A stretch of 64,000 nucleotides of DNA from Paludibacteraceae bacterium. Lineage in GTDB: Bacteria > Bacteroidota > Bacteroidia > Bacteroidales > Paludibacteraceae. This document shows, piece by piece, positions 33,190-64,000 of the stretch (position 1 is the stretch's first letter; each line of letters starts with the position of its first letter). The notes below the pieces were generated by a model. It worked only from the letters and a program-made list of their open reading frames with translations, did not search any database and had not been told where the DNA came from. Location: positions 1 through 64,000 of the forward strand of contig JAGBVI010000005.1 of the NCBI GenBank assembly GCA_017630395.1, given 5' to 3'. Both the position numbers and the translations under genes were made by a program.

Positions 33190-34173
33190 TTACCAATACA
33201 CAACCGGACAAGGATATCTCTCTTTCACGCGAATCACATAGATTAAGTTAATTTCATGCGACCACGAACCATTTTTTTTCTTTCTGGTGGTAAACAAATC
33301 ATAAACATAACAAGCTTGGAAACTACCAAATTGAAGTCCAGCCATAAAAGAAGGGACGTATGAATCATCAAAATCAGTTTTAAAAGTAACACCTGCCAAA
33401 ATTGGGCTAATCAACACTCCCACACCCAACAATAAATTTTGAAATTCATCTTGTTTTTGATAATACAAGTTGGTAAATAGGTAGTTACTAGAAAGGTCGG
33501 AACGACTAAACAATCCATTTTTATACTGCAAATCCTTAAACCAAGAAACATGTCCCACAAACTTTCTTTCCAATACATTATTGGGTTTATCCATAAATCC
33601 ATTTTTAGGTTCACCTATATGATAAACAGAAACACCCAAAGTCAACTTATTATCAATCACAAAAGCACCTCCAACCGAGAAATCAGGATAGACACGAGAA
33701 TCACTACCTAAATTCTCCATAGTATTATGAACTGCATCACGATAGAACGGGTCATATTGATCTTCAAATGTCAAGTCACCACCTCTAAAATTCGCAAATA
33801 CAGTACCTTGAACACCTAAACGAATAAAGAAATGCTCTTTCAAACGAAAAGTATGACAATAAACAACATCAAACTCATTAACTTGATAAGTACCGGCTGC
33901 CATATTATCATACGAATAAGCTACTCCCACAGAACACATTTGCTTATAAAAATTCTGGTCATACGAAGCCCTCACAGTATGATATTTATTTCCCAAAGCA
34001 GGCCACTGCTGCCTATAGTTCAAACCAAAACGAACTGCATTTGCAGCCCCCGCCAATGCCGGATTTAAACTAAATGGCACCATATTGTGATTCGAAAAAG
34101 AATAATCCTGCGCCCAAACAGAGGACAACAAACTGCCCAATCCTATCAATATTACTAAAAACGTCTTTCTCAT
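33190..34173 (-). CDS. PorP/SprF family type IX secretion membrane protein
   Basis: A 327-residue outer-membrane protein. Residues 1-21 are a signal peptide ending VWAQ, followed by the family start DYSFSNHNMVPFSLNPALAG, and RFGLNYRQQWPAL, ASYDQNFY and GVAYSYDNMAAGTYQ further in. This N-terminal pattern (few residues, then NPALAG) is diagnostic for PorP/SprF proteins. They act with T9SS in the export or surface anchoring of large C-terminal-domain proteins. It follows the 1,495-residue T9SS protein by 7 bp; such pairs are the rule for SprB-like adhesins and are functionally linked. Confidence 0.93.
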   Translation of the reverse strand: MRKTFLVILIGLGSLLSSVWAQDYSFSNHNMVPFSLNPALAGAANAVRFGLNYRQQWPALGNKYHTVRASYDQNFYKQMCSVGVAYSYDNMAAGTYQVNEFDVVYCHTFRLKEHFFIRLGVQGTVFANFRGGDLTFEDQYDPFYRDAVHNTMENLGSDSRVYPDFSVGGAFVIDNKLTLGVSVYHIGEPKNGFMDKPNNVLERKFVGHVSWFKDLQYKNGLFSRSDLSSNYLFTNLYYQKQDEFQNLLLGVGVLISPILAGVTFKTDFDDSYVPSFMAGLQFGSFQACYVYDLFTTRKKKNGSWSHEINLIYVIRVKERYPCPVVYW

Positions 34174-34180
34174 AACTAAT

Positions 34181-37100
34181 CTATTTTATAATAGTTACAT
34201 ATCCTTTCTTTTCAGCCTCTTTATAGATTCCCTTAAAAGTGCTCGAATAATTCACTACCCAACCATAAACTCCTTGAGGGCAATATTGACCATCTGCATA
34301 TTTTCCATTCCAAACATCATCAATACTCTTACCTTCAAAAAGCACCTGACCTAAACGATTATAGATAATATAAGTAAAGTTCTCCATAAATTCTCCTCCA
34401 CGGAATTTGAATACATCATTCAAACCATCTCCGTTTGGAGAGAATGCATTAGGAGCCCAAAAATCCTTCCATACATATACATAAGAAGAACCTGTATACT
34501 CACACCCTAAATCATCAACTGCTTTCACTTCCACCAAAAATGAATCTGTAGTAGTTGCATCATATTCTGAATATTCGTATGACACTTCATTTCCTACAAT
34601 CTCTCGTTCACCATCACCAGGATACCAATACCAAGTACACTCCTTGGGCGTATATCCTATAAAATGAACACGTCGGTCCTCTTCTTCAATAATAGCCGGT
34701 TTAACCGAGAAATTAAGCGAATCATAATCTTTTGGGTCAATGATAATAGAATCCGATTCTAAACAACCATACTCATTCTTTCCTATCACAAAGAACTTTG
34801 TGCGCTCTGAAATCAACGGCTCTACTAGTCCTCCACTTGAACCTTCAAAACCTGAGATCTTTGGTTCTGAATACCATGTATATGTATGAGCTCCACTTGC
34901 TTTCAAAGCAACAGTTGTTAACAATCCCGGACAACCATCTTTCCCAACTTCCTCCAAAGATACATTAAAATCTGGATAAACCTTAACAAAAGTGTCTTTT
35001 TTTGCACTACAACCATTCAATAATTTTCCAATCACAGTATAATTAGCATCTGAAGCAAGAGAATAATGGATAGTGGAACTTGTATCTCCGGTACTCCATT
35101 CATAGAAATCTGCTCCCATAGCAACCAATGTAAAAGAGTCATCTTTACAAACATATAAATCTCCAACTATATTGATATTTGGCTTCGGAAGAGTATAAAT
35201 ATAAATATCTTTATAATCCTTACAATCTCCATATCCTCCAGCCAAGGTTATACGCATATTCCCTTGCGGTTCATACTTCAATCTACCGCTCTGAGATAGA
35301 ATTTCTCCATCTTTCTCCCAAGTATAATTTGAAGCCCCACTCGCCACTAAATCCAATTCATCACCCAAGCAGACTGTTGTCTCTCCCGTAACAGACACCA
35401 CAGGAGGATCCACAGTATTTACTCGATGCACTTTCGTATTAGTACATCCATAGACATCCCATGCTTTCACCTCTAAAGACAAGGTATCTTGAACAACTTT
35501 CGAAACATTCTGCGACATTTCTCCACTACTCCATACATACTGTATCAAATTATCTCCTGAAACAGAGAATATTGCAGTTGTATTTTTACATACTGTTGTT
35601 GGTCCATCAATACCAACAACCGGACGAGGCTTTATAGTATATGGAATTGTTAAACTTGTTGAACATCCATCACTATTAAATCCTGTTAAGGTAATAGTAG
35701 ATGAATTCATCGGGAAGGATTTAAATATTTCCCCATGTATTGATGCATTCCACGTATATTCATCAGCACCGTGCGCTAATAAAATTAATGAATCTCCTAC
35801 ACAAATATTAGTTTTTCCATCAATCCAAATGTATGGTGCATCTATTATATTAATAGGAATATCCAAACGAGAAGTACATCCGCTTGTCGTTCCTTCCACC
35901 CAGATTGATGTACTTTTTTCAAGCGATTCTACAAAATTATTGGATGCACTTCCATTGCTCCATTTGTAGGAATATGCTCCAGATACAGACAAACTAACGG
36001 CTGTTCCCCTGCATACTTTAGTTTTACCTTGATAAGTTAATTGTGGGAATGGGATGGTAGCAATAGTATGCGATTGAACAGAAGAACATCCAAAAGAAAT
36101 CTCTTTAGCAATCACTTCAAATTGCGTTGTATCAGAAATAAATGTAGTGATTTGAGATCCTACAAATCCATTATCCCACTGAAAGACACAGTCAAATTCA
36201 ACCCCCTCTGCCTTTAACGTCACTTCTGAATTTTCACATATTGTAGAAGGCGCATCAATCTGAAACTTAGGCTTTGGATGAACATTTACCACGTAACTAT
36301 CATTTCCTTTACAGCCTGCTTCTGAAGTTCCTGTTACATAAAAGGTTTGTCCTCGCTCCAAAACCTTGTTAATTTGACTTTCTGTCTCTCCTGTTCCCCA
36401 CTCGTATGTAGCTGCTCCTATCGCAAAAAGAGATACAGAATCCCCCTCACAAATATCTTGTTTACCTTGGATAGAAACTGTTGGATTCGGGTTCACATCG
36501 ACAGGAATTTCTAACTTAGTTACACAACCATTAGAAGTTCCTTCAACCCAATACGACGTAGTAAGCAAATCCGGAACTCTTGTCACTGCTGATTTTAGTG
36601 TTCCATCATCCCACTTATAAGTTTGTGCACCTTCTACCCAAAGAGATAATTGCTCCCCTTCACATATTTTTTGATTACCATGCAAAATCAATTCAGGTTT
36701 ATTATTCACTATTAGTTTATATTGAGCTTGATTGCTACATCCATTTGAATCAGTTCCTAAAACTTCATAAACATCAGAACTAACAGGAGCTATCATAAAT
36801 GAATCTCCCATAAACACATTTTGCCACAAATACTCTGCTCCTCCTTCTGCTAAAAGTGTGGCTGTTTCTCCAGAACATATAGCAGACGGACCAATCACCT
36901 TTATCTCCGGCAATGGATTAACTTCTACTTTAACTTTCTTTGATGTTTTACATCCCGTCTGCGTATAGGTACCGGTTACTTCATATTCTAATGTTTGCTG
37001 AGGAATGATATGTAAAGTATCTCCAACATGTCCCGTATTCCAAACATAAGAATCAGCATCTCCCCAAACCCATAATTTAGCAGGAGTATTGAAACAAGCT

Positions 37101-38668
37101 GCCGTATCTCCTTTAATAAATATTGTAGGAGAAGCAGAAACCGTCACATAAACATCTTTAGAGTATTCACAACTAAATTTATCGACAATAACCACCTTGT
37201 AATATTGACTTTGTTCTCCTCGAGTACTAAGGGATATATCTTTAGAAATAGTATCTCCATCTTGATTCAACCAATAAAATTCATTTCCAATTCCAGAAGA
37301 AAGTACAGATAGAGATATTGGATCTCCATAACATACCTGCTGGTCTCCATCCACTGTAATCAATGGCAAATCATTCACTTGAACCGTACGAGATACAGAT
37401 TCTACACAACCATTTCCGGAGGTAATTTTTAGGGTTACCATATAACTTCCTGGTGCGCTATATATATGAGTTGGTGACTCTGCTGCGGAGGTTAGTCCAT
37501 CACCAAAGTCCCACCAATAAGCCTTAATTGTATCTCGCTCTATTGTAGAGGTACTTTCAAATTTAACGGCCAAATCACATGCACTTTTACTCTCAAAATT
37601 TGGCTTCATTTCGATGGTATTTAACACCGTATCAGCCAATAGGTTTGTACACGCTGCATCTGAACCAATCATACGGCAACAATATTTTGCACCATCCACT
37701 ATCTCTGAATAAGGGATTCTCACCTCATGAGGAGAATTAACATTTGTCTCTAATGGCAAATTATCATTACAACGATACCATTCATAACGTTCAAAACCAA
37801 TTGGAGCGGTGATGTAAGCATCATCATTACCACAATTTCGAGGAACAAGTCGGAACTGCTCCGTTTTACCCCAAAAATATCCGTACGCCTTATGACTTCC
37901 TGCTTGTTGTCTATTTCCGACATCCACCAAACAATCATTTACTTGTAATGCAATATTAACAGTATAACCAATATAAGGGGTTAAATCATAACTAACGGTT
38001 CTCCATGGTTGATAAACATACTCCTCAGGTGCTTGAGTACTTTCTACTTTAGCCTCATAACAACTCGCCGGATTTCTTAACAGCGTGGAAGAGTTAAAAC
38101 TTGCTCCTCCATTAAACGACTCACAAGGGAGAGTTACTTTATTTCCATCCGGCGACAATAATTCCACTGAAACCGAAAACGAGGGCATTTGATAAGAGGT
38201 GTGATTATCAGATGTTGGCACATGTAAAACACACGCATACTTATAAGTAAACAAGGTACTTTCCTCATTAACAACAAAACTATATGTCATTCTTTCTGCA
38301 TTGGCAGAAGCATTATTTCTACCATCTGCATAACCAGAATTTTTACCAATTTGTATTACAATCTCATCATCCGGATTAACAAGGAAACCACTACATGCAA
38401 TAATTGGATCGACAGAACCCATATCTCCAGACAATAATATACGTTCATCTGCTCTCGCTCGTGCCTCAGAGACTTCCGTCCACTTGTACTGATAATCGTA
38501 TGAGACTCCATCTTCTGTCTGCATTCTTACCGGTGTATAAAGACCCGTATAAAGTTTCCATCCGTCTAATGTCCCATTAATCTTCAAACCTGTATTCTGA
38601 GAAAAAGCTTCAATAACAAAAAAAAGACCTATCAATACAGAGCCAATAAAAAAATAAATTTTCCGCAT
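34181..38668 (-). CDS. T9SS type B surface protein with Ig-like repeats and PKD domain
   Basis: A 1,495-residue secreted protein. A signal peptide (about 1-23) is followed by a large N-terminal module to about residue 340 that includes AERMTYSFVVNEESTLFTYK and ends near TAPIGFERYEWYRCND. A PKD domain follows (YWWDFGDG, then HIYSAPGSYMVTLKI). About twelve tandem Ig-like repeats come next, each with a C-G/C-N start such as ICEGDSVSLFAIGA and a later GC. The last 87 residues, from about 1409 (FSPNGDGLNDVFKF), are the gliding-motility-type C-terminal domain that directs T9SS export (type B sorting). It is in an operon with porP/sprF and probably sits on the cell surface as an adhesin. The target is unknown. 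Confidence 0.94.
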   Translation of the reverse strand: MRKIYFFIGSVLIGLFFVIEAFSQNTGLKINGTLDGWKLYTGLYTPVRMQTEDGVSYDYQYKWTEVSEARARADERILLSGDMGSVDPIIACSGFLVNPDDEIVIQIGKNSGYADGRNNASANAERMTYSFVVNEESTLFTYKYACVLHVPTSDNHTSYQMPSFSVSVELLSPDGNKVTLPCESFNGGASFNSSTLLRNPASCYEAKVESTQAPEEYVYQPWRTVSYDLTPYIGYTVNIALQVNDCLVDVGNRQQAGSHKAYGYFWGKTEQFRLVPRNCGNDDAYITAPIGFERYEWYRCNDNLPLETNVNSPHEVRIPYSEIVDGAKYCCRMIGSDAACTNLLADTVLNTIEMKPNFESKSACDLAVKFESTSTIERDTIKAYWWDFGDGLTSAAESPTHIYSAPGSYMVTLKITSGNGCVESVSRTVQVNDLPLITVDGDQQVCYGDPISLSVLSSGIGNEFYWLNQDGDTISKDISLSTRGEQSQYYKVVIVDKFSCEYSKDVYVTVSASPTIFIKGDTAACFNTPAKLWVWGDADSYVWNTGHVGDTLHIIPQQTLEYEVTGTYTQTGCKTSKKVKVEVNPLPEIKVIGPSAICSGETATLLAEGGAEYLWQNVFMGDSFMIAPVSSDVYEVLGTDSNGCSNQAQYKLIVNNKPELILHGNQKICEGEQLSLWVEGAQTYKWDDGTLKSAVTRVPDLLTTSYWVEGTSNGCVTKLEIPVDVNPNPTVSIQGKQDICEGDSVSLFAIGAATYEWGTGETESQINKVLERGQTFYVTGTSEAGCKGNDSYVVNVHPKPKFQIDAPSTICENSEVTLKAEGVEFDCVFQWDNGFVGSQITTFISDTTQFEVIAKEISFGCSSVQSHTIATIPFPQLTYQGKTKVCRGTAVSLSVSGAYSYKWSNGSASNNFVESLEKSTSIWVEGTTSGCTSRLDIPINIIDAPYIWIDGKTNICVGDSLILLAHGADEYTWNASIHGEIFKSFPMNSSTITLTGFNSDGCSTSLTIPYTIKPRPVVGIDGPTTVCKNTTAIFSVSGDNLIQYVWSSGEMSQNVSKVVQDTLSLEVKAWDVYGCTNTKVHRVNTVDPPVVSVTGETTVCLGDELDLVASGASNYTWEKDGEILSQSGRLKYEPQGNMRITLAGGYGDCKDYKDIYIYTLPKPNINIVGDLYVCKDDSFTLVAMGADFYEWSTGDTSSTIHYSLASDANYTVIGKLLNGCSAKKDTFVKVYPDFNVSLEEVGKDGCPGLLTTVALKASGAHTYTWYSEPKISGFEGSSGGLVEPLISERTKFFVIGKNEYGCLESDSIIIDPKDYDSLNFSVKPAIIEEEDRRVHFIGYTPKECTWYWYPGDGEREIVGNEVSYEYSEYDATTTDSFLVEVKAVDDLGCEYTGSSYVYVWKDFWAPNAFSPNGDGLNDVFKFRGGEFMENFTYIIYNRLGQVLFEGKSIDDVWNGKYADGQYCPQGVYGWVVNYSSTFKGIYKEAEKKGYVTIIK

Positions 38669-51289: not shown

Positions 51290-54200
51290 ATGAAACAGAG
51301 AAGCAACATGAACGACAAGAAGTTTCTACACATCATAAGATTGGTATTAACCCTCATTATTGTAGGAGGAGTTAGTAGTTCGCTCTATGCCAAAAATGAA
51401 GACACCCCCAACTTGGACTTCAGCAAAGGAACATGGGAGGGCTGGACCAGGTATTATGGGTATTATGGACCGGTCAATATGCTTACCCCTACCAATGGAA
51501 AAGTTGTTTCCAATAGTTTGAATGCTCGTGATGTTGACGCTACTGATGTATGGACATTAAAGAATGACCAGATCTCCGGAACCAATTATGGTATGTTTGA
51601 AATTGTCAGTTCAAGTTCTAATGACAACAACTTAGCTTGTGACAACTTAAAATTGGTACCGGAAGGAAGCACACATACTGTTAGAATCGGGAATATGGGA
51701 TTCCCTGAAATCTATGCAACTTCAGACTTTGTAGGTAATTGGTATAGACGAGCCATGGCAGAGCGCATGACCTATAGTTTTACAGTAACAGAAGCCTCAT
51801 CCCTGCTCACCTATAAGTACGCAACTGTTATTCAAAAAGATTCTGAACATGAATCGTATCACGATAGTGAAGGAATGGCACCATTTTCTGTAACCGTAAC
51901 CGCCAATAATGGCACTGTATTATGTAACTCTATGGTGGTAAAGAGTGATTCTGAGTTAAAAAAGGCCTCTATTATACAACAAAAAGGAACCTACCAAACC
52001 GTATGTACACAATACTCTGACAATTGTATAAATTTAAGTGATACCAAATATTACTTTGAAAGAGACGAATGGGGAGGAGGAAAGAGATATTATTACTATG
52101 ATAATAGAGGAAGAAAAAAGAGTTATACTGACAATGACAATGCCATGATTTGGGATGCAACTGCAAATTGTTACCGCTTGTGCATGGAGAGGGAGTGTAT
52201 AAAAACAGAATCTATTTTTATCCCGGATGACAAAGCCTACCCCTGCTACCAATCCAACTTAACACAAGATGTATTGGATGAGATGTATTACAAGGAGTGG
52301 GCCACCATTGTCTATGACTTAAGAGACTATATTGGTCAAACCATTACCATTGATGTTCGGAATCGAGATTGTTTGGAATATGGTTGGGTGTGTAACGGAT
52401 GTAATGCTTACGGAAACTTTAGTAACCTTAAGGTTGTTACACAAAACACTGGAACAGCAAATTGTTTGTATTGCGGAAGGACTAATTGGACATTTTCTTC
52501 ACGGATTATGGCCGGTTTTCACCGCACCTACGGTTACTTCACGGCGGAGACATCTAAAATGGAGTTAACCGTACAAAATTGTGGAGATAAACACGATGCC
52601 AAAATCACTGCTCCAGAGGGGTTTGCATCTTACGAGTGGAGAGATCCTAACGGGAATGAATTGATGACCGAAGAAGGTCACCCCAATGTGGCTATTGTTC
52701 CCTACGGTAGCATTCAACCTAACAAGGATTACACTTGCACCATGAAGAGTGCTGACCCTGACTGTGAGCCGATTGTAGAGAAATTCAGATTAAACAACCC
52801 TCCTATCGAATTGGACTTTACAGCGGATGTAGCCTGCTTCAATGAGGTACAATTTACCGATAACAGCAAGGTGCTTCCCGTAACCATTGATGGAGAAGAG
52901 GTGATTTACGACTCTATTGTCAACAGAGTATGGTCTTACTACGAAGATGGTGAATTGGTGGAAATTGCAGAAAAAAATCCTTTGATTCAATTCAATTGCA
53001 AAAACAATACAACTTGTACCTACGAGGTTAAATTAACCGTTTGGACAGCCAACGACTGTAAACGCGAAATTACCAGGGAGATAGAAGTACAACCCCGTCC
53101 GGATGTAGAGTTGCTTGGAGAAGACAAAGTATGTTTTGGTTATTCCACTCCAATTGAATTGAAGAACTACAATTATAGCGATAACATCTACTATTGGTTA
53201 AATGAATCCGGAGACACCCTTGCAAAAGGATCAGGCGATGCATACAGAATCTACGATGCCCAACCTACCAATGGAACAGCCACCTATACCCTACGCATCG
53301 AACGTCAGGAAGTATCAAATTTAGACAAGATCAGAACCTGTCGTTACATCGGGGAACATAACATCACCGTATTGGAGACACCTACAGTAGCTGTAACAGC
53401 CAATAACACCTACTTCCCTACCATAGATGGAAATCCTGCTAAGGCAATTGATATCTGTTTGAAGGCAAAAGCCCATTTGACTGCAACAACCAACATGAAT
53501 TGCGACATAGCATGGTTTGAAGATATTAACGATATATTACATACAACCGGAGATAACAATATAAGCAACTACACGCACACCATAACAGATAGCACCAAGG
53601 TGTATCTCAAAATGTATGTAGAAGCTACATCAAAAACAAATGGATGTAAAGCCTACGATTCCATCTACATCAAGGATTTGCCAATACCAGAAATAACCAT
53701 TGAAGGTCCGGACGAGATTTGCGCCAACACCACAGAACTCTATACCGCAACAGGAGATGGAAAACCTGAGAGTTATGTATGGACCACTGCCGAAGGCAAC
53801 AACTTCCAAATGCCGGGCATCTCTATCACACAACCGGAAACGAGTAATGGAACTTCTGCAAAATACACCTACTCCGTAATGGGAGTCGGCATCAACGGTT
53901 GTAGCAACAGTGTAACGAAAGAGATTGAGGTCTTCAATGCACCGGTACTTAGCGTAAATGGAAGCACACAAATCTGTGAAGGCGGAGAGATAGCTCTATC
54001 GATTGGCGGAGCAGATAGTAGTAGTTGGGATAATGGAGCACAATTGCTTGGCGGAGCAGAAATGAAAGAGACTCCTGCCAACACGAGAAAGAGCTACATG
54101 GTATATGGATACAAGAAGAACAATACGGCACTCTGCATGAGCAAGATAGAGATTCCGATCACAATTCACAGCAAGCCGAACATTCTCATTACCGGTATCA

Positions 54201-57200
54201 CCGATATCTGTGAAAACCAGATTGTCACGTTAACCGCCAGTGGAGCTTCGCGATATGAGTGGAACGATGCCAACAAGACAAAAAATGCCGTAATGACGGA
54301 CTCGCCTAACGACACCACAACTTACAATGTAATTGGATATACAGATATAACCTCTACCCTCTCATGTGCAGGAGAAAACAGTGCCACCGTAATTGTACAC
54401 GATGCACCACAATTCACACTTGCGGCAGACCCGGAAAGAGTGTGTGAGGGCGAATTGACGACCATTACGCCAACAGCCGAAGAGGGCTATCAAATCACCA
54501 CCTATCAATGGGACAACGGAGCACTCAACAACACATTAACAACAAGTGTCAATACAACACAAACTTTTGGAGTAACAGCAACCGACCGATATGGATGTAC
54601 CAATCATGGCACAATAGAGGTAAAAACGAAACCCTTCCCAACACTTACCATAGATGCCGGAGATGCTATCTGTGAAAATTCAGAAGCAACCGTTAAGGTA
54701 TCCGGAGCAGATGAATACACATGGGAACACGGAGATGAAAAAGGAAGTGTAACGAACGTAACAAACAAAAATGGTTCATTCTCTCATCAACCCAAAGGAA
54801 CAGGAGAAGTATTCTACCTAATAACCGGAACAACCGAAGGATGTAGTACCAAAGAGCAAGCCAAAGTCACTATTTCCGAAGCACCGGCCATAGCCATAAC
54901 AGGATATGAAAATGGCGTTTGTTTAGGCGGAAGCGTAACCATCACTGCCAGCGGAAGTGCAGAAGGAAAGATCTACCAATGGCTCGATGGCAATGGAGAC
55001 ACTATAAAGAGTGCTACAGGAGAAAATCACAACAAATTAACTTTAACGCCGGAGAAAGCCGGATTATACCAATACACAGCAATAGGATTTGACTCTAAAG
55101 ATTGTAAAGGGAAAGCCACCATTACATTAGAGGTCTATGAAAATCCTGTAGTAAAAATAGGTGCATCCGACAAGAACACCAACTGTATAGGAACCAATAT
55201 AGAACTAACAGTAGCGGCTCCTAATACCAACATTTTCAATTGGACATTACAAGATGCCAATGGAAATAGTTTAGGAGATGCAAGCGGAGCAACAATAAAC
55301 ATTCCTATGCAACAAACCACAAAATTTACTGTGGAGGCCACCGACATCAATGGATGTAAAGGGAAAGCAGATACAACCATCATTGCAAAACCCTATCCGG
55401 AATTTCAAATTAGTGGGAATGACTATGTTTGTCAAAGTGCTAAAGAGATAACTCTGCAAGTAACAGGAACAGAAGGGACTCAATATACATGGACAAAGGG
55501 AACAACGACAACAACAGGAGCCAATTTCACGGATAAGAATGTCAATCTTGATGGACAACGATCCTATGACGTAACAGTATCCGGGGATTTAGATGGATGT
55601 CGGTTAGAGCAAACCTATAAATTAAATATCATCACACCTCCCAATATTTATATCTCGGGAAACAATGCCTATTGCGAAGGTGAAGAGGTTGAACTAACTG
55701 CCAAAGGAGGAGTAGAAGGAGAATACATTTGGAACAACGATTCCGAACAAAAAAGTGGAACATATACTACAAAAGCCTCCACCGATAAAACCCAGTTTAT
55801 TGTTGAGGGAAAAGATAGTAGAGGATGTAGTAATACAGCCACATTTGACATCAGCGTAAAAGAAGCTCCGGAAGTAAAAATAAAAACACCGGAAAGCACA
55901 GAAATATGTAGAGAATCAACCATAAAATTAGAAGTTGAAGGAGCTCAAAATTTCACATGGGAAAAGGTGAGCAATAACCATGCAGAAGATTATGCATGTA
56001 CCAATTGTGGAAGCATCAACCCACAAATCACAGAAGATGTAAAATACATTGTAACCGGGAAAGATGCAGAAGGATGTATAGGCAAAGACTCGATATTAAT
56101 TGAGGCGAAAGAGATTCCTGAAATTACCATCAGCGGAGCCGGGGTTGTCTGCATGAATGAAGGAATCGTCTTAAAAGCAAAAAACATCAACAAGAATACC
56201 ACTATAACAAAATGGGTATGGTCAGAAAAAGACAATGATGGCTACGACTCAATCCTAACAATAGAGGAATTAGACGGAAAGAGATCCTTTACAGTCACTG
56301 CCACTTCAGATGCGGGATGCGAAAAGCAAGCGACAGCAGAAGCAGATGTATATACCCCGCAAAGTATCGGTATTGACCATGGAACAGGCTTTGTTTGTTA
56401 TGGCGGAAGCATGACTATCCATGCTATTGGAGATGCCAATTTAACATACACATGGAAGAAAAAAGATGATGCAACATGGAGTGCAAGCGGAAAATCTGTA
56501 ACCATAGATAACATCACATCCAACTTTGAAATTCAACTTTCAGCCGTAGATGGACAAGGATGTGAAAGTTTTGCAGAACCGAAAGAGATTGTTAGTAATC
56601 CACTACCAACGATTGCAATTACATCAGACAAAGAAGGTGGATTGTGTAAGGGCAATTCGATCAAACTTACTGCCCAAGCGAAGAACAACGCAACCATGCA
56701 AAATGGAGGATGGGAATGGTTTGATGCAAATAAGCAATCAATGGATAACAAAGTGGGATCATTGCAACTAAATAACATTACAGAAGCAACTACTTATTAT
56801 GCAGTCGGGAAAGATATCAACGGCTGTCAGTCTGATACAGCCCGTTATGATATCAACATACTATCCACACCGGAAGTAACAATAGAAGGTCCGGATACCG
56901 TATGTAAAAACAGTGAAATCACCTTGATTGCCCAAACCGATGCGGGCAACAGTGTCAAATGGAATAATAATGATGAGGGTCCTCAAATAACAGAAACATT
57001 AACCATTGCGAAGGAGTACACATTTACAGCAGTCGTAAACAATAGTTCTTGTAGTACTACAGCAAGCAAGAAGATAGTAGTAAATGACAATCCACAAGTT
57101 ACCCTAACGAGTGTGAATGGAAAGAGCAGTGTTTGTGAAGATGAAACCATCGACATAAAAGCCAACACAGAAAATGATGTAACCTATAGTTGGGAAAATG

Positions 57201-60200
57201 CGACATCAACAAGCAACATAGCCAATTACAAGCCAACCGAGGGCTCAAATACAATCAGTTGCAAAGTGACAGTCACAGAAAAAAACACAAACTGTCAATC
57301 AACAGCCAATTTCAACGTTACAGTCAACCGCAGACCTACATTGTATATCAATGGAGAAACAAATGGAAGAAGCAAAGTATGCGAAGGTGACAACATCTCA
57401 TTAACAGCCACAGGACTCTCCTCAAAGAATTACGATTGGTATGCAGACGATGTAGTTGTAGGAGGAAGTGACAACTACCATCCGAACATACTAAAGAAAA
57501 CAGAATACAAAGTTATTGGAAGCGATGAGAATGGATGTAAAGGAGAGGCAATTTATACTGTTGACATCAAGCCATTCCCTACATTCGAAGTAGCAAACAG
57601 TACTATATGTAGCGGAGAAGAAGCTAAAGTAGAAGTAAAGAATGGAAATGCCGAAAAATATAGATGGGAATGGGAAAATGGATCTTATAAAGGAGTTGAA
57701 AAAGAAACCATCTATAAAGAGACATTAACAGAGAGCAAAGTCTATACGCTATATGGAGAGTTAGATGGATGTGTAACTCCGGTAGGAAAAACAGCAACCG
57801 TAACAGTAAAAGCATTGCCAACAATTACCATAGAATCCAATCCACTATCCAAAGAGATTTGTCTGAACGAAAGTATAACATTGAATGCATTGGGAGGAGA
57901 AAGTGGAAAATATAATTGGAATCAAGGAGGAGGACTAACAACCAACAACCAAGACAAAGTTACAATCACCCCTGAAGCAGTTGGAAGCTACAGCTATAGC
58001 GTAATAGGGGAAAAAGATGGTTGTACCAATACCGGAACAATTAACATTACAGTGAATCCACTACCAACAGTAGCAATAAAAGCCACTGAAAAGAACATCT
58101 GTATAGGCGAAAGCGTAACATTAAATGCCAGCGGTGCCGACTCATACGTATGGAGTTCAGGGAACTCGACATGGAATGGAACCAGCATCTCCCCTATTAT
58201 AGACAAAGAGACAATAATTAGTTTGGTAGGAACAGATGGCAAAGGATGTAAGAGCGCACCGGAAACTATCACCATCCAAACAAAGAGTAAACCGGCAGTA
58301 AGTTGGACAAAGGTAGAAGTGTGCGAAGGAGCAAATGCAGAAGTTGTAATCAACGGAGCAGAGTCTGTTATATGGAAAGAAGATGGTGTAACCACAACCA
58401 ACAGCAGAACATTTGAGAATGTAAAAGAAGAAAAAACCTATCAAATTACTGTTATAAACAACGGGTGTGAAAAAGATACATTCATTACCATCTACGTCAA
58501 TAAACTTCCTGTCATCTCTCTAACCAATAACTTAGGAGAGAAGAATGCAATATGTAAAGGAGACGAGGTGGAAATAAAAGCCACTGCAGAAAATTGCAAA
58601 TTCACTTGGAAAACAGGGGAAGATAAGGTAACAATATCCGGAACAAACAACGAATTGCTCACCTATCGTCCAACAGAAGCAGGAACAAGAGAGTACAGAA
58701 TCATTGCAGAAAACAGCACAACACACTGCTTTGATTCAATCAACTACACCTACAATATAAACGATCTTCCAACCAATGAAATAGCAGGAACAAATGTTGT
58801 ATGTATTAATAGTACAATAAGATTAGAATCACAAGGGAAAAATTTTGTGACCTACTCATGGGCAGAGAGCAGTAATACCGATTATATAATTGGAACACAG
58901 CCAATATTGGAAGCAGCTATCGATTCTGACAAGAAGTACACATTGGTCATTAGTGATCAGAATGGATGTAGAGACACATCCAGCTATGAAGTAAAGGCAG
59001 TAAGATACCCAACATTCAATTTTGAATATGACAAAGTATGTGCTAACAACAGCGGAAAAGTACAAATAAAAGATGTAACACCAACCACAGCTCAAATAAA
59101 TTGGCAATGGAATGGAGGTACAGCAAACAATATATCAGAAGTAACTGCAACATTAAAAGAAAATACAACATTCACAGTAAGTGCATACGTTTCAATAGAT
59201 GATGTCAACCGTTGCGAAACCACTCAAACATTTGAAGCAACAGTATATGATGCGCCAAGTTTCACTATTCAAACCAACAGAGATAATGATGAAATTTGCG
59301 AAGGCGAATCAATTGAATTAAGTGCGAGTGATGATAGTTACACCTATACATGGACAAATCCGAATGGAGGCGAAGAGGATATACTTGGAACGACTCAATC
59401 CATAACCGTATCCCCTAACAGCAACAACACCTATCAAGCGACTGCTACCAACAAAGAAAAATGTACAACAGTTGTAACGAAAGAAGTAAACGTAAACATA
59501 AGACCAAAAGTTGAAATTACAAAAGAAGGAGCAGCTTGTCCTGGTAATACAGTAACAGCCATAGCATCCGGAGCAGCATCATATAAATGGCTAAACGACA
59601 AGCAAATAGAAATAGGAAACTACACCAACAAGCAAAGTATAAAAATTGCAGAAGAAGGCAGTACAGATACTACATTCTACGCCGTTGGAACAAGTAGTGA
59701 GGGATGCTCAGACACCACAAAAGTTGAAATTCAAAAACTATCCAACCCAAAATTAGAGTTTAAAGGAAATTTGGTTATTTGTGAAAATAACATTCCTGAG
59801 ATAACCGTATCAGGAGCATCAGCATACCAATGGTTTGATGAAAACGGAGTTATTGGAGTTGGAGAGAAACTTCCTGTTAAACAAGCATTAACAGAGACAC
59901 AAACATATACTGTAATTGGTAGCGATGGAGAAAATTGTTCATCAGAAGAGACAATAACAATAACCGTGAATAAGAACCCATCAGTATATATATCTGCAGC
60001 CAATACAGATAATATGACAAAAACCAATATTTGCTTAAATGATTCCGTTGTGTTAACAGCCCATGCCGATAACGTAATATTTGAAAATTGGGAAGATGGT
60101 AAGCTACTTGTCAAAGGAGAGAGTATTGGAAACAAAACCTATAGTGTCAACGTAATAGAACAGAGCACAAAATGCCCAGGTACAGCAACCTACGACGTCA

Positions 60201-63200
60201 ACACACTAGGATTACCGGGAGTAAAAATCGTATCAAATTCCAACTCGGTTTGCGAAGGAATGACAATTACACTCACATCAAATGACGAATACAAAACCTA
60301 TCAATGGTACACATACGATGAAAACAACAAAACCAATTTAAATTCAAACATTGGAAGTTGGACACAACCGTTGACAGCCACAACTCAATACATATTGGAG
60401 GTAACAGATGAAAATGGTTGTAGGAACAATGATACCACCGAGGTAATTGCAAAACCATACCCAGAAGTAAAATTCAATTATCCATCAGTATGTTCCGGAA
60501 CTCCGGCTATAATTACAGCAACCGAAAGTACAGCAGATGAATATATTTGGCCAAGCAATGGTAAAAGCGAAGGCAATGTATGGACTTCTGAAGAAAAGTT
60601 AACAAATAAGAAAAGTTTCACCATCACAGTTGGAAAAGAAGAGTGCTATAAAAGTCATAGCATAGAAATAGAAGTAAATGACAAACCTAATATTTCTGTA
60701 AGCGTAAATGGATCAGAAACAAATGGAAATTCAGTGGAAATTTGTTCCGGAAGTAATGTGGTATTGGGAGTAACCTCAGACAATAAAACATTAAGTAGTT
60801 ATGAATGGATTGCAAACAATACTATTGTAAGCAAAAAACAAGAACACAGCGAAAATGCTCTAACAAACAGCACTACTTATAAAATTAAGGTTGCAGATAC
60901 AGAAAGTTGTGAAAATGAAAAAGAACAAATAATTATAGTAAACACACCGCAACCAATTATTGTCAGCGGAAATAACAGTGTATGTGAAAATGGAGATGTC
61001 ACATTAAGTGCAAGCGGAAGCAAAAACTATAGTTGGACTATCACACCATCAAACGGTGCAACCATACGATATAACAATGACGATAAGAGCAATGTCACTA
61101 TACAAAAAATAAAAGAAAACATAGAAATTGCAGTAAGTGGAATCGACAATAAGGGATGTAAAAATGATACCGTAAAACATACTATCGTAGTAACTAAACA
61201 ACCAACATTAACCATCACAAGCAACACAGGCAAGATGGAATTATGTAGTGGTGAAAATATAACATTGACCGCTACAGCAGACGACAAATCCGTAATTAGA
61301 TGGAAAAATAACAGTTCAGACGGAGAAGTATATACAACTCCAACATTGAACACAACACAAAAACAAAGTTATACCTACGAAGTATCCGTAAATTACGGAG
61401 AAGGAAACACATGTAAAGCAGACTCAATCGTAACAATTATAGCCAATCCACTTCCGATTGTACAAATTACCGGAGATATTGCATTTTGCGAAGGCGGAAA
61501 ATCTACATTGACAGCAAGTGAAATGTATGGAAACAGCAACAAGACCTTTGCATGGACAAACTTTGATAAAGGAGTAAATCCAATCAAAGTAACAGAATCC
61601 GGAACATACGAAGTAAAAGCAACCGATAACGTAACAGGCTGTATCAGTGAAAAGAAAGAATACATTGTTACCAAATATAATAATCCGACAGATGTAACTA
61701 TCACATCAGAAGAGGCTACTTGTAAAGACTCAACCATTACATTAGTTGCCAACAGCAAAAACAAGATGGAATATGAGTGGTATCAATTAGGAGTCAACAA
61801 TGAAAAAACGCACGTAGGTTCCGGAAATTCAATCGAACAAACAATTACAAAAGATGAACAATATAAGGTAGAAGTAGCAGAACCACATACCCTATCTAAC
61901 GGACAGATTTTGAGATGTTATGATACAATTGACTATGCAGTAACGGTAAAAGAAGCACCAATATTCTTCTTTAACGCAGAAAGCATTTGCTACGGTAAAG
62001 ACCTTACAATAAGCATTAATGGTCCGTCTGACGCAGAATATACGTGGAATAAGCAAAACCATGTAGGCCAGAGCTATACCGACAAAGAATTAAAAGAAGC
62101 CGGTAGTTATTCAGTCACTGCCCTATTGGACGGATGTGCATTGACTAAAGATACAACTATAAACATCTATGCATTACCTGTTATTAACAGTTTGAATGCA
62201 GAAGAGAGTGTATGTTTAAAATCAGAAATGATGATTACATCCGACTGTATGGGAAGTGGAGCACTAAGCTATAGTTGGACAACCAATAAAGATCAAAATA
62301 GTATTATCAGCAACACAAACGGAGCGACACTAAAAGTTGCACCAACGACACAAGATGAAAGAAAATACTATTTAGAGGTAACAGACGAGAATAATTGTAA
62401 AAACAAAGACTCAATCATTATCGGAATCAAATCATTGCCTGCTATAGATATTGATGGCGAGTTGACCGTTTGTAAAAACAGTGACATAACATTAAGTGTC
62501 AAGAACAACTTAACATTCAATTGGTATCAATATGACGATGCCACAAACAAAAAGGGAGATTTATTGATGTCCGGCAGCGGAAATGACCCTTTCACGCAAA
62601 CAATTACAGAAGACCGAACATTCTATGTTGAAGTAGAAAATAGCGATGGTTGTACAAATGGAGAAATCGTTCGAGTAAAAACAAACGAATTACCAGAGAT
62701 AAAATGGAGCGGGGAAAATGAAATATGTTATGGAGAAACGAGTGAGATTATGTTTATTGCTCAACAAGCTGGAGATAAATATACATTAACAGATGAGAAT
62801 AATAACATAGAAACAAATATATTAAGTAAAGCCTTCTCCCCTACTACAACTACAAAGTACAAAATTGAAGTAACATCAAGCAATAATTGTACCAACACAG
62901 GTGAGTTAGAAATTAAAGTAAATGCATTACCTGAAATTACAATTAACAATGTAAAAGAAGGAAGCAGCAATATTTGTTTAAATTCCGAGATTGAACTCGG
63001 AGCAGGAAGCAATGTGCCATGTCAATTTAAATGGAATACAAGCTCCACTGAAGATACAATAAAGGTGACAGCCAATACCCTTGCAGGATTTACGGCAGTA
63101 TTAGTTGGAACCGATGAAAATGGTTGCGTTGACTCAGCTAAGTTTGACGTAATAGGATTACCATTACCTACAATAGAAATCGGAGGAGTTAACAAAGTCT

Positions 63201-64000
63201 GCGAAGGATCAACAGCAGAAATATATGTAAAGAATGTAACACAAAATATGAATTATTTATGGAAAGATAATAATTCAACAGATGTTGAAAGAAAAGTAAC
63301 CATAGATAAGGATACCATCATGTACATAACAGGAATTGATAAAAACACCCAATGTAGCAATGAAGGTTCATTCAAAATTACAAAAATAAAATATCCAACA
63401 TTAGAAGTAACACCAAGCGACACAACAGTATGTTTGGGTAACGAGATAACATTTAAAGCCACTTCCGATGCAGCAATTATATATTGGAATGGAATTGCGA
63501 GTGTAAATAAGAAATATAAATATCTTGTAAATGAAGCTGCCGAGATAACCATAACTGCTGAAGATAATTCATGTACAACAAACAAGGTAGTAAAAGTAAA
63601 CTATTATGAATTACCAAAAGTGGAGATAAGCGATCCGGGAATTGTCTGTGAAAACAGTAAAAAAGAGTTAATCGCAGAAGTTACAGGAGGAAGCACTCCA
63701 TATATCTACGAATGGAGTGGACTGATAGCCAGCAGTGAGGAAAATAAAGCGGTTACCAATTTATTGACACCAGCTGACAACAATGAAAAATTCAAAGTAT
63801 CTGTTACAGATAAAAACGGATGTATCGGTACAGATTCCACGCAGGTTGAAGTTGCAGAAAATCCAACCATCACTATTGCAGTCGAAAAAAGTGAAATTTG
63901 TGAGGGCGATATAGCGAAGTTAACAGCATCCGGAGCAGGAAATGACGGAACATATTTATGGAATACAAATGAAACCGGAGCCATTATAACTCCAACTATC
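51290..64000 (+). CDS. giant T9SS-type surface protein with tandem Ig-like repeats, 3' end outside window
   Basis: One frame is open from 51290 to the right edge, at least 4,237 codons, so the C-terminus is not seen. A signal peptide with a hydrophobic core (LVLTLIIVGGVSSSLYA) starts the protein; an in-frame ATG at 51308 is an alternative. The next 450 or so residues form a Cys-rich N-terminal module with AERMTYSFTVTEASSLLTYK and TAPEGFASYEWRDPNGNEL, closely like the 1,495-residue protein. A PKD-like domain and then about 45 Ig-like repeats follow, each about 80-90 residues with a Cys near the start (such as ITDICENQIVTLTASGAS) and a later GC. The repeats are diverged, not identical. A T9SS type B C-terminal domain is expected beyond the edge. 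A large exported adhesin is the likely role; I cannot name a ligand. Confidence 0.9.
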   Translation, partial: MKQRSNMNDKKFLHIIRLVLTLIIVGGVSSSLYAKNEDTPNLDFSKGTWEGWTRYYGYYGPVNMLTPTNGKVVSNSLNARDVDATDVWTLKNDQISGTNYGMFEIVSSSSNDNNLACDNLKLVPEGSTHTVRIGNMGFPEIYATSDFVGNWYRRAMAERMTYSFTVTEASSLLTYKYATVIQKDSEHESYHDSEGMAPFSVTVTANNGTVLCNSMVVKSDSELKKASIIQQKGTYQTVCTQYSDNCINLSDTKYYFERDEWGGGKRYYYYDNRGRKKSYTDNDNAMIWDATANCYRLCMERECIKTESIFIPDDKAYPCYQSNLTQDVLDEMYYKEWATIVYDLRDYIGQTITIDVRNRDCLEYGWVCNGCNAYGNFSNLKVVTQNTGTANCLYCGRTNWTFSSRIMAGFHRTYGYFTAETSKMELTVQNCGDKHDAKITAPEGFASYEWRDPNGNELMTEEGHPNVAIVPYGSIQPNKDYTCTMKSADPDCEPIVEKFRLNNPPIELDFTADVACFNEVQFTDNSKVLPVTIDGEEVIYDSIVNRVWSYYEDGELVEIAEKNPLIQFNCKNNTTCTYEVKLTVWTANDCKREITREIEVQPRPDVELLGEDKVCFGYSTPIELKNYNYSDNIYYWLNESGDTLAKGSGDAYRIYDAQPTNGTATYTLRIERQEVSNLDKIRTCRYIGEHNITVLETPTVAVTANNTYFPTIDGNPAKAIDICLKAKAHLTATTNMNCDIAWFEDINDILHTTGDNNISNYTHTITDSTKVYLKMYVEATSKTNGCKAYDSIYIKDLPIPEITIEGPDEICANTTELYTATGDGKPESYVWTTAEGNNFQMPGISITQPETSNGTSAKYTYSVMGVGINGCSNSVTKEIEVFNAPVLSVNGSTQICEGGEIALSIGGADSSSWDNGAQLLGGAEMKETPANTRKSYMVYGYKKNNTALCMSKIEIPITIHSKPNILITGITDICENQIVTLTASGASRYEWNDANKTKNAVMTDSPNDTTTYNVIGYTDITSTLSCAGENSATVIVHDAPQFTLAADPERVCEGELTTITPTAEEGYQITTYQWDNGALNNTLTTSVNTTQTFGVTATDRYGCTNHGTIEVKTKPFPTLTIDAGDAICENSEATVKVSGADEYTWEHGDEKGSVTNVTNKNGSFSHQPKGTGEVFYLITGTTEGCSTKEQAKVTISEAPAIAITGYENGVCLGGSVTITASGSAEGKIYQWLDGNGDTIKSATGENHNKLTLTPEKAGLYQYTAIGFDSKDCKGKATITLEVYENPVVKIGASDKNTNCIGTNIELTVAAPNTNIFNWTLQDANGNSLGDASGATINIPMQQTTKFTVEATDINGCKGKADTTIIAKPYPEFQISGNDYVCQSAKEITLQVTGTEGTQYTWTKGTTTTTGANFTDKNVNLDGQRSYDVTVSGDLDGCRLEQTYKLNIITPPNIYISGNNAYCEGEEVELTAKGGVEGEYIWNNDSEQKSGTYTTKASTDKTQFIVEGKDSRGCSNTATFDISVKEAPEVKIKTPESTEICRESTIKLEVEGAQNFTWEKVSNNHAEDYACTNCGSINPQITEDVKYIVTGKDAEGCIGKDSILIEAKEIPEITISGAGVVCMNEGIVLKAKNINKNTTITKWVWSEKDNDGYDSILTIEELDGKRSFTVTATSDAGCEKQATAEADVYTPQSIGIDHGTGFVCYGGSMTIHAIGDANLTYTWKKKDDATWSASGKSVTIDNITSNFEIQLSAVDGQGCESFAEPKEIVSNPLPTIAITSDKEGGLCKGNSIKLTAQAKNNATMQNGGWEWFDANKQSMDNKVGSLQLNNITEATTYYAVGKDINGCQSDTARYDINILSTPEVTIEGPDTVCKNSEITLIAQTDAGNSVKWNNNDEGPQITETLTIAKEYTFTAVVNNSSCSTTASKKIVVNDNPQVTLTSVNGKSSVCEDETIDIKANTENDVTYSWENATSTSNIANYKPTEGSNTISCKVTVTEKNTNCQSTANFNVTVNRRPTLYINGETNGRSKVCEGDNISLTATGLSSKNYDWYADDVVVGGSDNYHPNILKKTEYKVIGSDENGCKGEAIYTVDIKPFPTFEVANSTICSGEEAKVEVKNGNAEKYRWEWENGSYKGVEKETIYKETLTESKVYTLYGELDGCVTPVGKTATVTVKALPTITIESNPLSKEICLNESITLNALGGESGKYNWNQGGGLTTNNQDKVTITPEAVGSYSYSVIGEKDGCTNTGTINITVNPLPTVAIKATEKNICIGESVTLNASGADSYVWSSGNSTWNGTSISPIIDKETIISLVGTDGKGCKSAPETITIQTKSKPAVSWTKVEVCEGANAEVVINGAESVIWKEDGVTTTNSRTFENVKEEKTYQITVINNGCEKDTFITIYVNKLPVISLTNNLGEKNAICKGDEVEIKATAENCKFTWKTGEDKVTISGTNNELLTYRPTEAGTREYRIIAENSTTHCFDSINYTYNINDLPTNEIAGTNVVCINSTIRLESQGKNFVTYSWAESSNTDYIIGTQPILEAAIDSDKKYTLVISDQNGCRDTSSYEVKAVRYPTFNFEYDKVCANNSGKVQIKDVTPTTAQINWQWNGGTANNISEVTATLKENTTFTVSAYVSIDDVNRCETTQTFEATVYDAPSFTIQTNRDNDEICEGESIELSASDDSYTYTWTNPNGGEEDILGTTQSITVSPNSNNTYQATATNKEKCTTVVTKEVNVNIRPKVEITKEGAACPGNTVTAIASGAASYKWLNDKQIEIGNYTNKQSIKIAEEGSTDTTFYAVGTSSEGCSDTTKVEIQKLSNPKLEFKGNLVICENNIPEITVSGASAYQWFDENGVIGVGEKLPVKQALTETQTYTVIGSDGENCSSEETITITVNKNPSVYISAANTDNMTKTNICLNDSVVLTAHADNVIFENWEDGKLLVKGESIGNKTYSVNVIEQSTKCPGTATYDVNTLGLPGVKIVSNSNSVCEGMTITLTSNDEYKTYQWYTYDENNKTNLNSNIGSWTQPLTATTQYILEVTDENGCRNNDTTEVIAKPYPEVKFNYPSVCSGTPAIITATESTADEYIWPSNGKSEGNVWTSEEKLTNKKSFTITVGKEECYKSHSIEIEVNDKPNISVSVNGSETNGNSVEICSGSNVVLGVTSDNKTLSSYEWIANNTIVSKKQEHSENALTNSTTYKIKVADTESCENEKEQIIIVNTPQPIIVSGNNSVCENGDVTLSASGSKNYSWTITPSNGATIRYNNDDKSNVTIQKIKENIEIAVSGIDNKGCKNDTVKHTIVVTKQPTLTITSNTGKMELCSGENITLTATADDKSVIRWKNNSSDGEVYTTPTLNTTQKQSYTYEVSVNYGEGNTCKADSIVTIIANPLPIVQITGDIAFCEGGKSTLTASEMYGNSNKTFAWTNFDKGVNPIKVTESGTYEVKATDNVTGCISEKKEYIVTKYNNPTDVTITSEEATCKDSTITLVANSKNKMEYEWYQLGVNNEKTHVGSGNSIEQTITKDEQYKVEVAEPHTLSNGQILRCYDTIDYAVTVKEAPIFFFNAESICYGKDLTISINGPSDAEYTWNKQNHVGQSYTDKELKEAGSYSVTALLDGCALTKDTTINIYALPVINSLNAEESVCLKSEMMITSDCMGSGALSYSWTTNKDQNSIISNTNGATLKVAPTTQDERKYYLEVTDENNCKNKDSIIIGIKSLPAIDIDGELTVCKNSDITLSVKNNLTFNWYQYDDATNKKGDLLMSGSGNDPFTQTITEDRTFYVEVENSDGCTNGEIVRVKTNELPEIKWSGENEICYGETSEIMFIAQQAGDKYTLTDENNNIETNILSKAFSPTTTTKYKIEVTSSNNCTNTGELEIKVNALPEITINNVKEGSSNICLNSEIELGAGSNVPCQFKWNTSSTEDTIKVTANTLAGFTAVLVGTDENGCVDSAKFDVIGLPLPTIEIGGVNKVCEGSTAEIYVKNVTQNMNYLWKDNNSTDVERKVTIDKDTIMYITGIDKNTQCSNEGSFKITKIKYPTLEVTPSDTTVCLGNEITFKATSDAAIIYWNGIASVNKKYKYLVNEAAEITITAEDNSCTTNKVVKVNYYELPKVEISDPGIVCENSKKELIAEVTGGSTPYIYEWSGLIASSEENKAVTNLLTPADNNEKFKVSVTDKNGCIGTDSTQVEVAENPTITIAVEKSEICEGDIAKLTASGAGNDGTYLWNTNETGAIITPTI

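Follow-up and report, generated by a model that had tools for sequence, protein, structure and literature searches.

Organisation of the locus

The window analysed here is a stretch of 64,000 nucleotides corresponding to positions 1-64000 of contig C37 (143,951 bases) of a 3.57 Mb draft genome comprising 128 contigs (G000). At its right end, a single uninterrupted frame of 4,237 codons was found on the forward strand (51290..64000), in agreement with the original prediction. When the sequence past position 64,000 was followed, as had been proposed, the gene was found to end with a stop codon at C37:74917. The complete gene, designated G1 (C37:51290-74917, + strand), encodes 7,875 amino acids, 211 of which are cysteines, with the first 4,237 of its 7,875 codons lying in the window. 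Its start resembles a signal peptide, as judged by eye only. Residues 1-520 (51290..52849, + strand) form an N-terminal module (N-module) with a cysteine-rich insert, and the rest of the window part (52850..64000, + strand) is occupied by an array of Ig_7 domains, recognised with Pfam, a repeat HMM and alignment.

Pfam assigned the window part of G1 to Ig_7 (PF19081, E 5e-96) and the part beyond the window to Ig_7 again together with CHU_C, with the Ig_7 match in the giants lying above the gathering score; Ig_7 is an Ig-like domain known to occur in association with CHU_C. The NCBIfam model TIGR04131 was also above cut-off in the part beyond the window, the type B C-terminal domain (CTD; CHU_C/TIGR04131) being located at C37:74645-74914 (+ strand). 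Such HMM searches for Ig-like and C-terminal domains had been suggested as a check, and the sorting domain that had previously been inferred was found to be present. On the basis of this domain, G1 is a predicted type B substrate of the T9SS.

A second giant gene of the same plan, G2 (C37:75414-98792, outside the window; identified by ORF, Pfam and CTD), lies after a gap of 496 bases and encodes 7,792 amino acids. BLAST aligned G1 from residue 319 to its end with G2 from residue 251 to its end in one stretch (35% identity), with the N-termini forming a separate second stretch (38% identity). G2 is followed by an opposite-strand AMP-binding gene and MutS2 (identified with Pfam). A PorP/SprF gene was also looked for downstream of the giant; none lies directly downstream, and none adjoins the giants in the species of the window. 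Such a gene was found instead downstream of a short paralogue (34181..38668, - strand; identified with BLAST, profile and NCBIfam). This paralogue encodes 1,495 amino acids with the same N-module, 14 repeats and a type B CTD, and its N-module is 33-34% identical to that of G1, bearing out the claim that the module is common to a smaller protein. TIGR04131 was above cut-off for G1, G2 and the paralogue. The PorP/SprF gene (33190..34173, - strand), 7 bases downstream of the paralogue, encodes 327 amino acids, was over cut-off for PF11751 and TIGR03519, and has the C-terminal tail YPCPVVYW.

Ig_7 repeats and cysteine pairs

A repeat HMM built from the Cys-to-Cys units of G1 itself counted 92 repeats in G1 and 91 in G2, and zero over the same threshold in each of five shuffled copies of G1. 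At least two cysteines were present in 91 of the 92 repeats of G1 and in 89 of the 91 of G2. An alignment of 20 giants contained 91 conserved Cys pairs (91-92 being the figure for the whole array), 45 of which lie in the window part, matching the earlier estimate of about 45 repeats there. The pairing of cysteines within each repeat, likewise part of that prediction, was thus confirmed at the level of conserved positions in all giants aligned. Each Ig_7 domain is probably stapled by one predicted disulfide.

Random pairs of G1 repeats show a mean identity of about 28%. Similarity between repeats peaks at lags of 3, 6, 9 and 12, most clearly in the last third of the array, which suggests that the array probably grew by the copying of a three-domain block. 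Among ten species, the linker that separates the second Cys of each repeat from the first Cys of its successor has a mean of about 26 residues and a spread of about 0.55, with the Cys-to-Cys stretch within the repeat being more variable (spread about 3.2). Rigid joints and free loops would explain such steady linkers and variable interiors.

Each giant contains about 200 cysteines, of which 191 are invariant (described below), although neither of the oxidases VKOR (PF07884) and DsbB (PF02600) was detected in any of the ten genomes searched (G000 and nine congeneric genomes). This raises the question of how the roughly 90 predicted disulfides per chain would form in these bacteria.

Conservation of domain number across the genus

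A search of genome contigs for the N-module identified 13 loci, eight in Paludibacteraceae and five in Bacteroidales. A source was given for six of these (three rumen, one reticulum, one omasum and one horse faeces). An N-module profile matched 29 of 61 genomes (the genome of the window and 60 relatives), including all 16 of the genus. Both giants were intact in 12 of these 16 genomes; in G003 both copies are cut by contig ends, and for G008, G012 and G014 no full-length giant was present among the matches listed.

The 24 giants of the 12 congeneric genomes with both copies complete were aligned using MAFFT. They range from 7,792 to 8,449 residues, with a lowest pairwise identity of 28%. Across all 24, 191 Cys columns are invariant, and 92 Cys pairs fall in the array. 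Within the array, no run of majority columns longer than 11 residues is missing from any giant, and the number of residues between successive invariant array cysteines differs by at most 40, approximately half a repeat, so that no whole domain appears to have been gained or lost. By this measure of conserved cysteines, the domain count, about 92, is unchanged over the 24 giants of 12 congeneric genomes.

That the repeats correspond in order was examined by sliding one array against the other. For G1 and G2 of the window genome, identity was 34.9% in register and 21.4% one repeat off, with values of 26.7% versus 20.2% and 27.1% versus 19-21% in two other species. Best-hit colinearity of single repeats was less clear than this slip test, with 23-60% of repeats colinear in six pairs compared to approximately 1% by chance. 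In a tree of 20 giants, the split between G1-type and G2-type proteins predates the species split. The two genes stand in tandem in nine of the 12 genomes and on different contigs in G002, G004 and G013. The G2-type copy was found beside a MutS2-like gene in all 12, with one gene between them in G000 and G006; MutS2 was confirmed by Pfam in the window genome only, being recognised in the other genomes by its size, its location and the sequence of its end.

A ready change in length is the general expectation for repeat adhesins, and comparison with other repeat proteins of the group showed that this does occur. Two giants of the sister genus, both of which share the N-module type of G1 and G2, differ markedly from them and from each other: that of G018 has 10,533 residues, with 118 repeats by profile and 121 Cys pairs by spacing, and that of G020 has 6,028 residues, with 44 repeats by profile and 58 by spacing, indicating that the profile undercounts in G020. 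The G018 gene (G018:C12:24035-55636) has a PorP of its own immediately after it. For the short paralogue, 14 repeats were counted in the window genome and 13 in each of three further species. Close to the locus, an unrelated protein with repeats has 1,196 residues in G010 and 1,763 in G011, two genomes whose giants are 65% (G1-type) and 67% (G2-type) identical. This variable protein (G010:C4:89403-92993 and G011:C9:68295-73586) is Cys-rich, with BSPA-like leucine-rich repeats by eye. As these controls vary, a constant repeat number is not the general rule in this group. It is unusual among repeat proteins for twins to keep the same count of Cys-paired Ig-like domains across a genus.

Between the two closest species, dN/dS was 0.18 for G1 and 0.125 for G2, and both giants are therefore under purifying selection over that interval. 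The draft status of the genome, with its 128 contigs, might raise the concern that the frame is an artefact of assembly or annotation; this is exceedingly improbable, as 24 full-length colinear giants were recovered from 12 separate genomes and dN/dS is far below 1 in both. The two giant type B T9SS surface proteins, G1 and G2, are real, complete and conserved as a pair.

The proposed PorP/SprF carrier

Nine of the 21 CTD matches in the genome were compared. The CTDs of G1, G2, the short paralogue and an adhesin on contig C60 are 55-71% identical mutually and 27-36% identical to the five others. The paralogue and the C60 adhesin each have a PorP directly after them with the tail end PCPVVYW, and the same tail follows the paralogue in three further congeneric loci (L051, L091 and L100), these being all that were seen whole. 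In the sister-genus genomes G018 and G020, a PorP lies directly after the giant itself, with the tail YPCPVVYW or YSCPIIYW. For F. johnsoniae, the available part of PMC12618676 describes three orphan type B substrates with CTDs more than 44% identical that share one carrier, as well as one carrier that accepts the CTD belonging to another pair, the two CTDs being 68% identical. Taken together, the grouping of the CTDs, the adjacency of giant and PorP with a like tail in the sister genus and the sharing of carriers in F. johnsoniae suggest that the giants most likely use the CPVVYW-tailed carrier beside the paralogue in trans; the paralogue itself is proposed to use this carrier as well.

Eight PorPs above cut-off are encoded by the window genome. 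A tail Cys beyond the Pfam domain is present in all three PorPs that directly follow an adhesin gene (L033-L035), with no OmpA gene seen beside them, in none of the four beside an OmpA-domain gene, and not in the one beside GldK. On its far side the C60 carrier has a contig end about 990 bases away, which limits the view of its neighbours there. In the accessible text of PMC12635249, SprF of F. johnsoniae is tethered via one Cys of a tail Cys-X-Cys to Cys343 of GldK, part of the moving track, and a single tail Cys is the pattern of P. gingivalis PorG, unlike that of SprF. Static type B substrates of F. johnsoniae are thought to pair with PorE-like proteins, according to the portions available of PMC9143113 and PMC12618676. 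By analogy, the adhesin-linked carriers, with a tail Cys and without an OmpA partner, could plausibly belong to a movable class.

Comparison of the PorP of the window with the PDB gave no match at E 0.01. Two N-terminal PorP pieces that closely resemble each other occur elsewhere in the genome (G000:C29:8670-8870 and C112:4-210), one of them at a contig end, which suggests a duplicated or broken carrier gene.

Gliding-type genes

GldK was above cut-off in all ten genomes searched, and GldH and GldD in all five genomes searched for them. A GldJ-like protein was present in 10/10 genomes below cut-off, with scores of 393 or 401 bits compared to the NCBIfam cut-off of 458; the protein of the window genome scored 401 bits with GldJ and 226 with GldK. 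Cys291 and Cys347 of its GldK align with cysteines of P. gingivalis PorK, as does Cys460, while Cys441 does not.

GldJ was also considered as a special mark of giant-bearing genomes. This was rejected, since GldJ-like proteins are widespread: the GldJ model gave some match in 61/61 genomes, a single stretch of at least 284 bits in 48 and a score over cut-off in 12. In the literature searched, no report of gliding in this genus was found.

Comparison with known systems

The resemblance of G1 to SprB-like adhesins, as originally proposed, stands as regards a giant type B T9SS substrate and gld-type genes in the genome. It does not extend to an adjacent SprF, and the solved protein that the repeats match best by far is a different one, GhpA. 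With SprB of F. johnsoniae the giants share their repetitive nature, the PorP/SprF carrier family, a carrier with a tail Cys, and genes for GldJ-like, GldK, GldD and GldH proteins. They differ in being two co-conserved giants with an N-module of their own, a non-adjacent carrier and a fixed count of Cys-paired Ig_7 domains, and in a carrier with one tail Cys (YPCPVVYW) where SprF has Cys-X-Cys in the available part of PMC12635249.

Among solved structures, GhpA of Aureispira (PDB 9flp and others) matches the repeats by far the best. A three-repeat profile matched GhpA with an E printed as 0, followed by an Ig-like domain protein at 1.7e-25 and a tail protein at 3.2e-18. The window part of G1 matched it at 3.2e-109 (next match 3.9e-09), and GhpA was the only match of the part beyond the window (1.7e-75). 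GhpA is a chain of 5,898 residues that spans a filament and forms a heptamer, as far as described in the accessible portion of PMC13319060, and is secreted by the T9SS and attaches to prey flagella according to the available part of PMC11205867. The giants resemble it as very large T9SS-secreted chains in which many homologous Ig-like domains follow one another. They differ in their N-module, whose profile did not match GhpA (9flp), in that heptamers or hooks are not known here, and in that the T6SS sheath family VipB (PF05943) was detected in 0/10 genomes, a search that a distant Bacteroidales type could escape. T6SS-based ixotrophy was considered as well; with VipB in none of the ten genomes, killing of that kind is unsupported.

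The PG1035-PorP-PorE static anchor of P. gingivalis also combines a type B CTD with a PorP-like barrel. In contrast to it, no OmpA/PorE-like gene was seen beside the carriers linked to the family of the giants, while four other PorPs of the same genome do have an OmpA-domain neighbour.

Proposed adhesive fibres of fixed length

Given the gene structure, the CTD, the repeats with their fixed number and the carrier family, G1 and G2 are probably adhesive fibres anchored at the cell surface, which might travel on a track of the gliding type. The CTD would remain attached to an outer-membrane barrel of the PorP/SprF type, and the two giants would most likely share the carrier with the CPVVYW tail whose gene neighbours that of the short paralogue. 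The approximately 92 Ig_7 domains, each probably with one disulfide, would make a rigid rod, with the N-module acting as a binding tip at its outer end. As the domain number is fixed, the rod would be of set length, about 0.35-0.4 micrometre if each domain measures about 4 nm, and the constant count suggests a fixed-length adhesive fibre. The tail Cys of the carrier suggests a tether to GldK, in which case a GldJ/GldK track may carry the fibres in the manner of SprB. Against the reading as a whole stand the single tail Cys compared to the Cys-X-Cys of SprF, the lack of an adjacent carrier, the GldJ-like scores below cut-off, the wide occurrence of GldJ-like proteins, the lack of VKOR and DsbB matches in ten genomes and an N-module that is not the part conserved least over longer times.

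The count might also have stayed constant for reasons other than selection for length or register, if G1 and G2 are redundant tandem duplicates whose strongly diverged repeats seldom recombine. At a mean identity of about 28% between random G1 repeats, slippage would be rare, and the lengths of the two arrays show little sign of mutual adjustment at the level of single domains: the domain lengths that changed from one clade to another in G1 show no correlation with those that changed in G2 (r = -0.04), and the length covariation specific to the domain index is weak (0.313 compared to 0.212 with shuffled indices, p = 0.013). However, repeat numbers do change within the group, as in the two sister-genus giants and the paralogue (14 versus 13), both giants remain intact in 12 of 16 genomes, the remainder being contig-cut or unresolved, and purifying selection acts on both between two close species. 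Redundancy is consequently regarded as a somewhat unlikely explanation. The same length data bear on a bolder proposal, in which G1 and G2 would pair up domain by domain in a hetero-oligomeric filament whose length is fixed, the register freezing both counts and a barrel with a single tail Cys carrying the fibre on the track. Total array lengths of G1 and G2 do correlate (r 0.97; ten species in about three clades), but domain-by-domain co-evolution of length gave only the weak signal above, and for this reason the paired filament is held to be quite improbable.

Alternatively, the giants might form an appendage like the grappling hook of GhpA, in which multi-chain bundles capture other cells and are static rather than carried on a track. 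As GhpA shows, long chains of Ig-like domains are able to form bundles, and G1 and G2, whose domain counts have long stayed equal, could do so with one another. A pair of colinear chains with matching counts would be well suited to in-register bundling, and no other solved structure matches the repeats nearly as well as GhpA. Ig_7 is, however, a general domain family, so that such a match is no proof of an orthologue, the N-module is without a match to GhpA, and a carrier with a tail Cys and no OmpA partner favours the mobile class. A static appendage of this type is therefore considered unlikely.

Fibres of this general kind are already known from SprB and GhpA. New within the literature searched are the twin arrangement, the unchanged count of Cys-paired domains and the occurrence in a genus of gut Bacteroidales, along with a carrier probably supplied by the operon of the short paralogue; searches covering giant or Ig-like T9SS adhesins, Paludibacteraceae and the rumen found no report of a twin pair among the titles and abstract openings covered, with subscription literature thinly represented. 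Two proteins of about 8,000 residues that split before the sampled species have kept about 92 domains and 191 cysteines in 24/24 copies at identities down to 28%, and so make the idea of a protein molecular ruler, or of a paired filament, amenable to testing. The adhesive fibres proposed here would also link a lineage of gut Bacteroidales to the model of a carrier barrel tethered by a disulfide to a moving GldK track.

The N-module as a candidate tip

Along G1, the highest dN/dS, 0.34, is reached in the N-terminal tenth, the part that includes the N-module. This fits a fibre anchored at its C-terminus with a changing outer end. Among distant orthologues, mean identity (two values for each region) is highest for the CTD (65 and 72%), compared to 47 and 51% for the N-module and 37 and 39% for the array stretch with the lowest conservation. 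The N-module is thus better conserved over long times than the worst array stretch, which weakens the argument for a variable tip.

The N-module of G1 had no Pfam match at E 0.1, and its profile found no relative in the PDB (best E 0.9). Weak scattered Pfam matches were obtained for some of 15 members of the module (best E 0.0057), and no convincing family match was found for the cysteine-rich insert. This insert (in the module at 51290-52849 of the window and in L040-L052) is variable in length and contains CxxC pairs that appear zinc-ribbon-like by eye.
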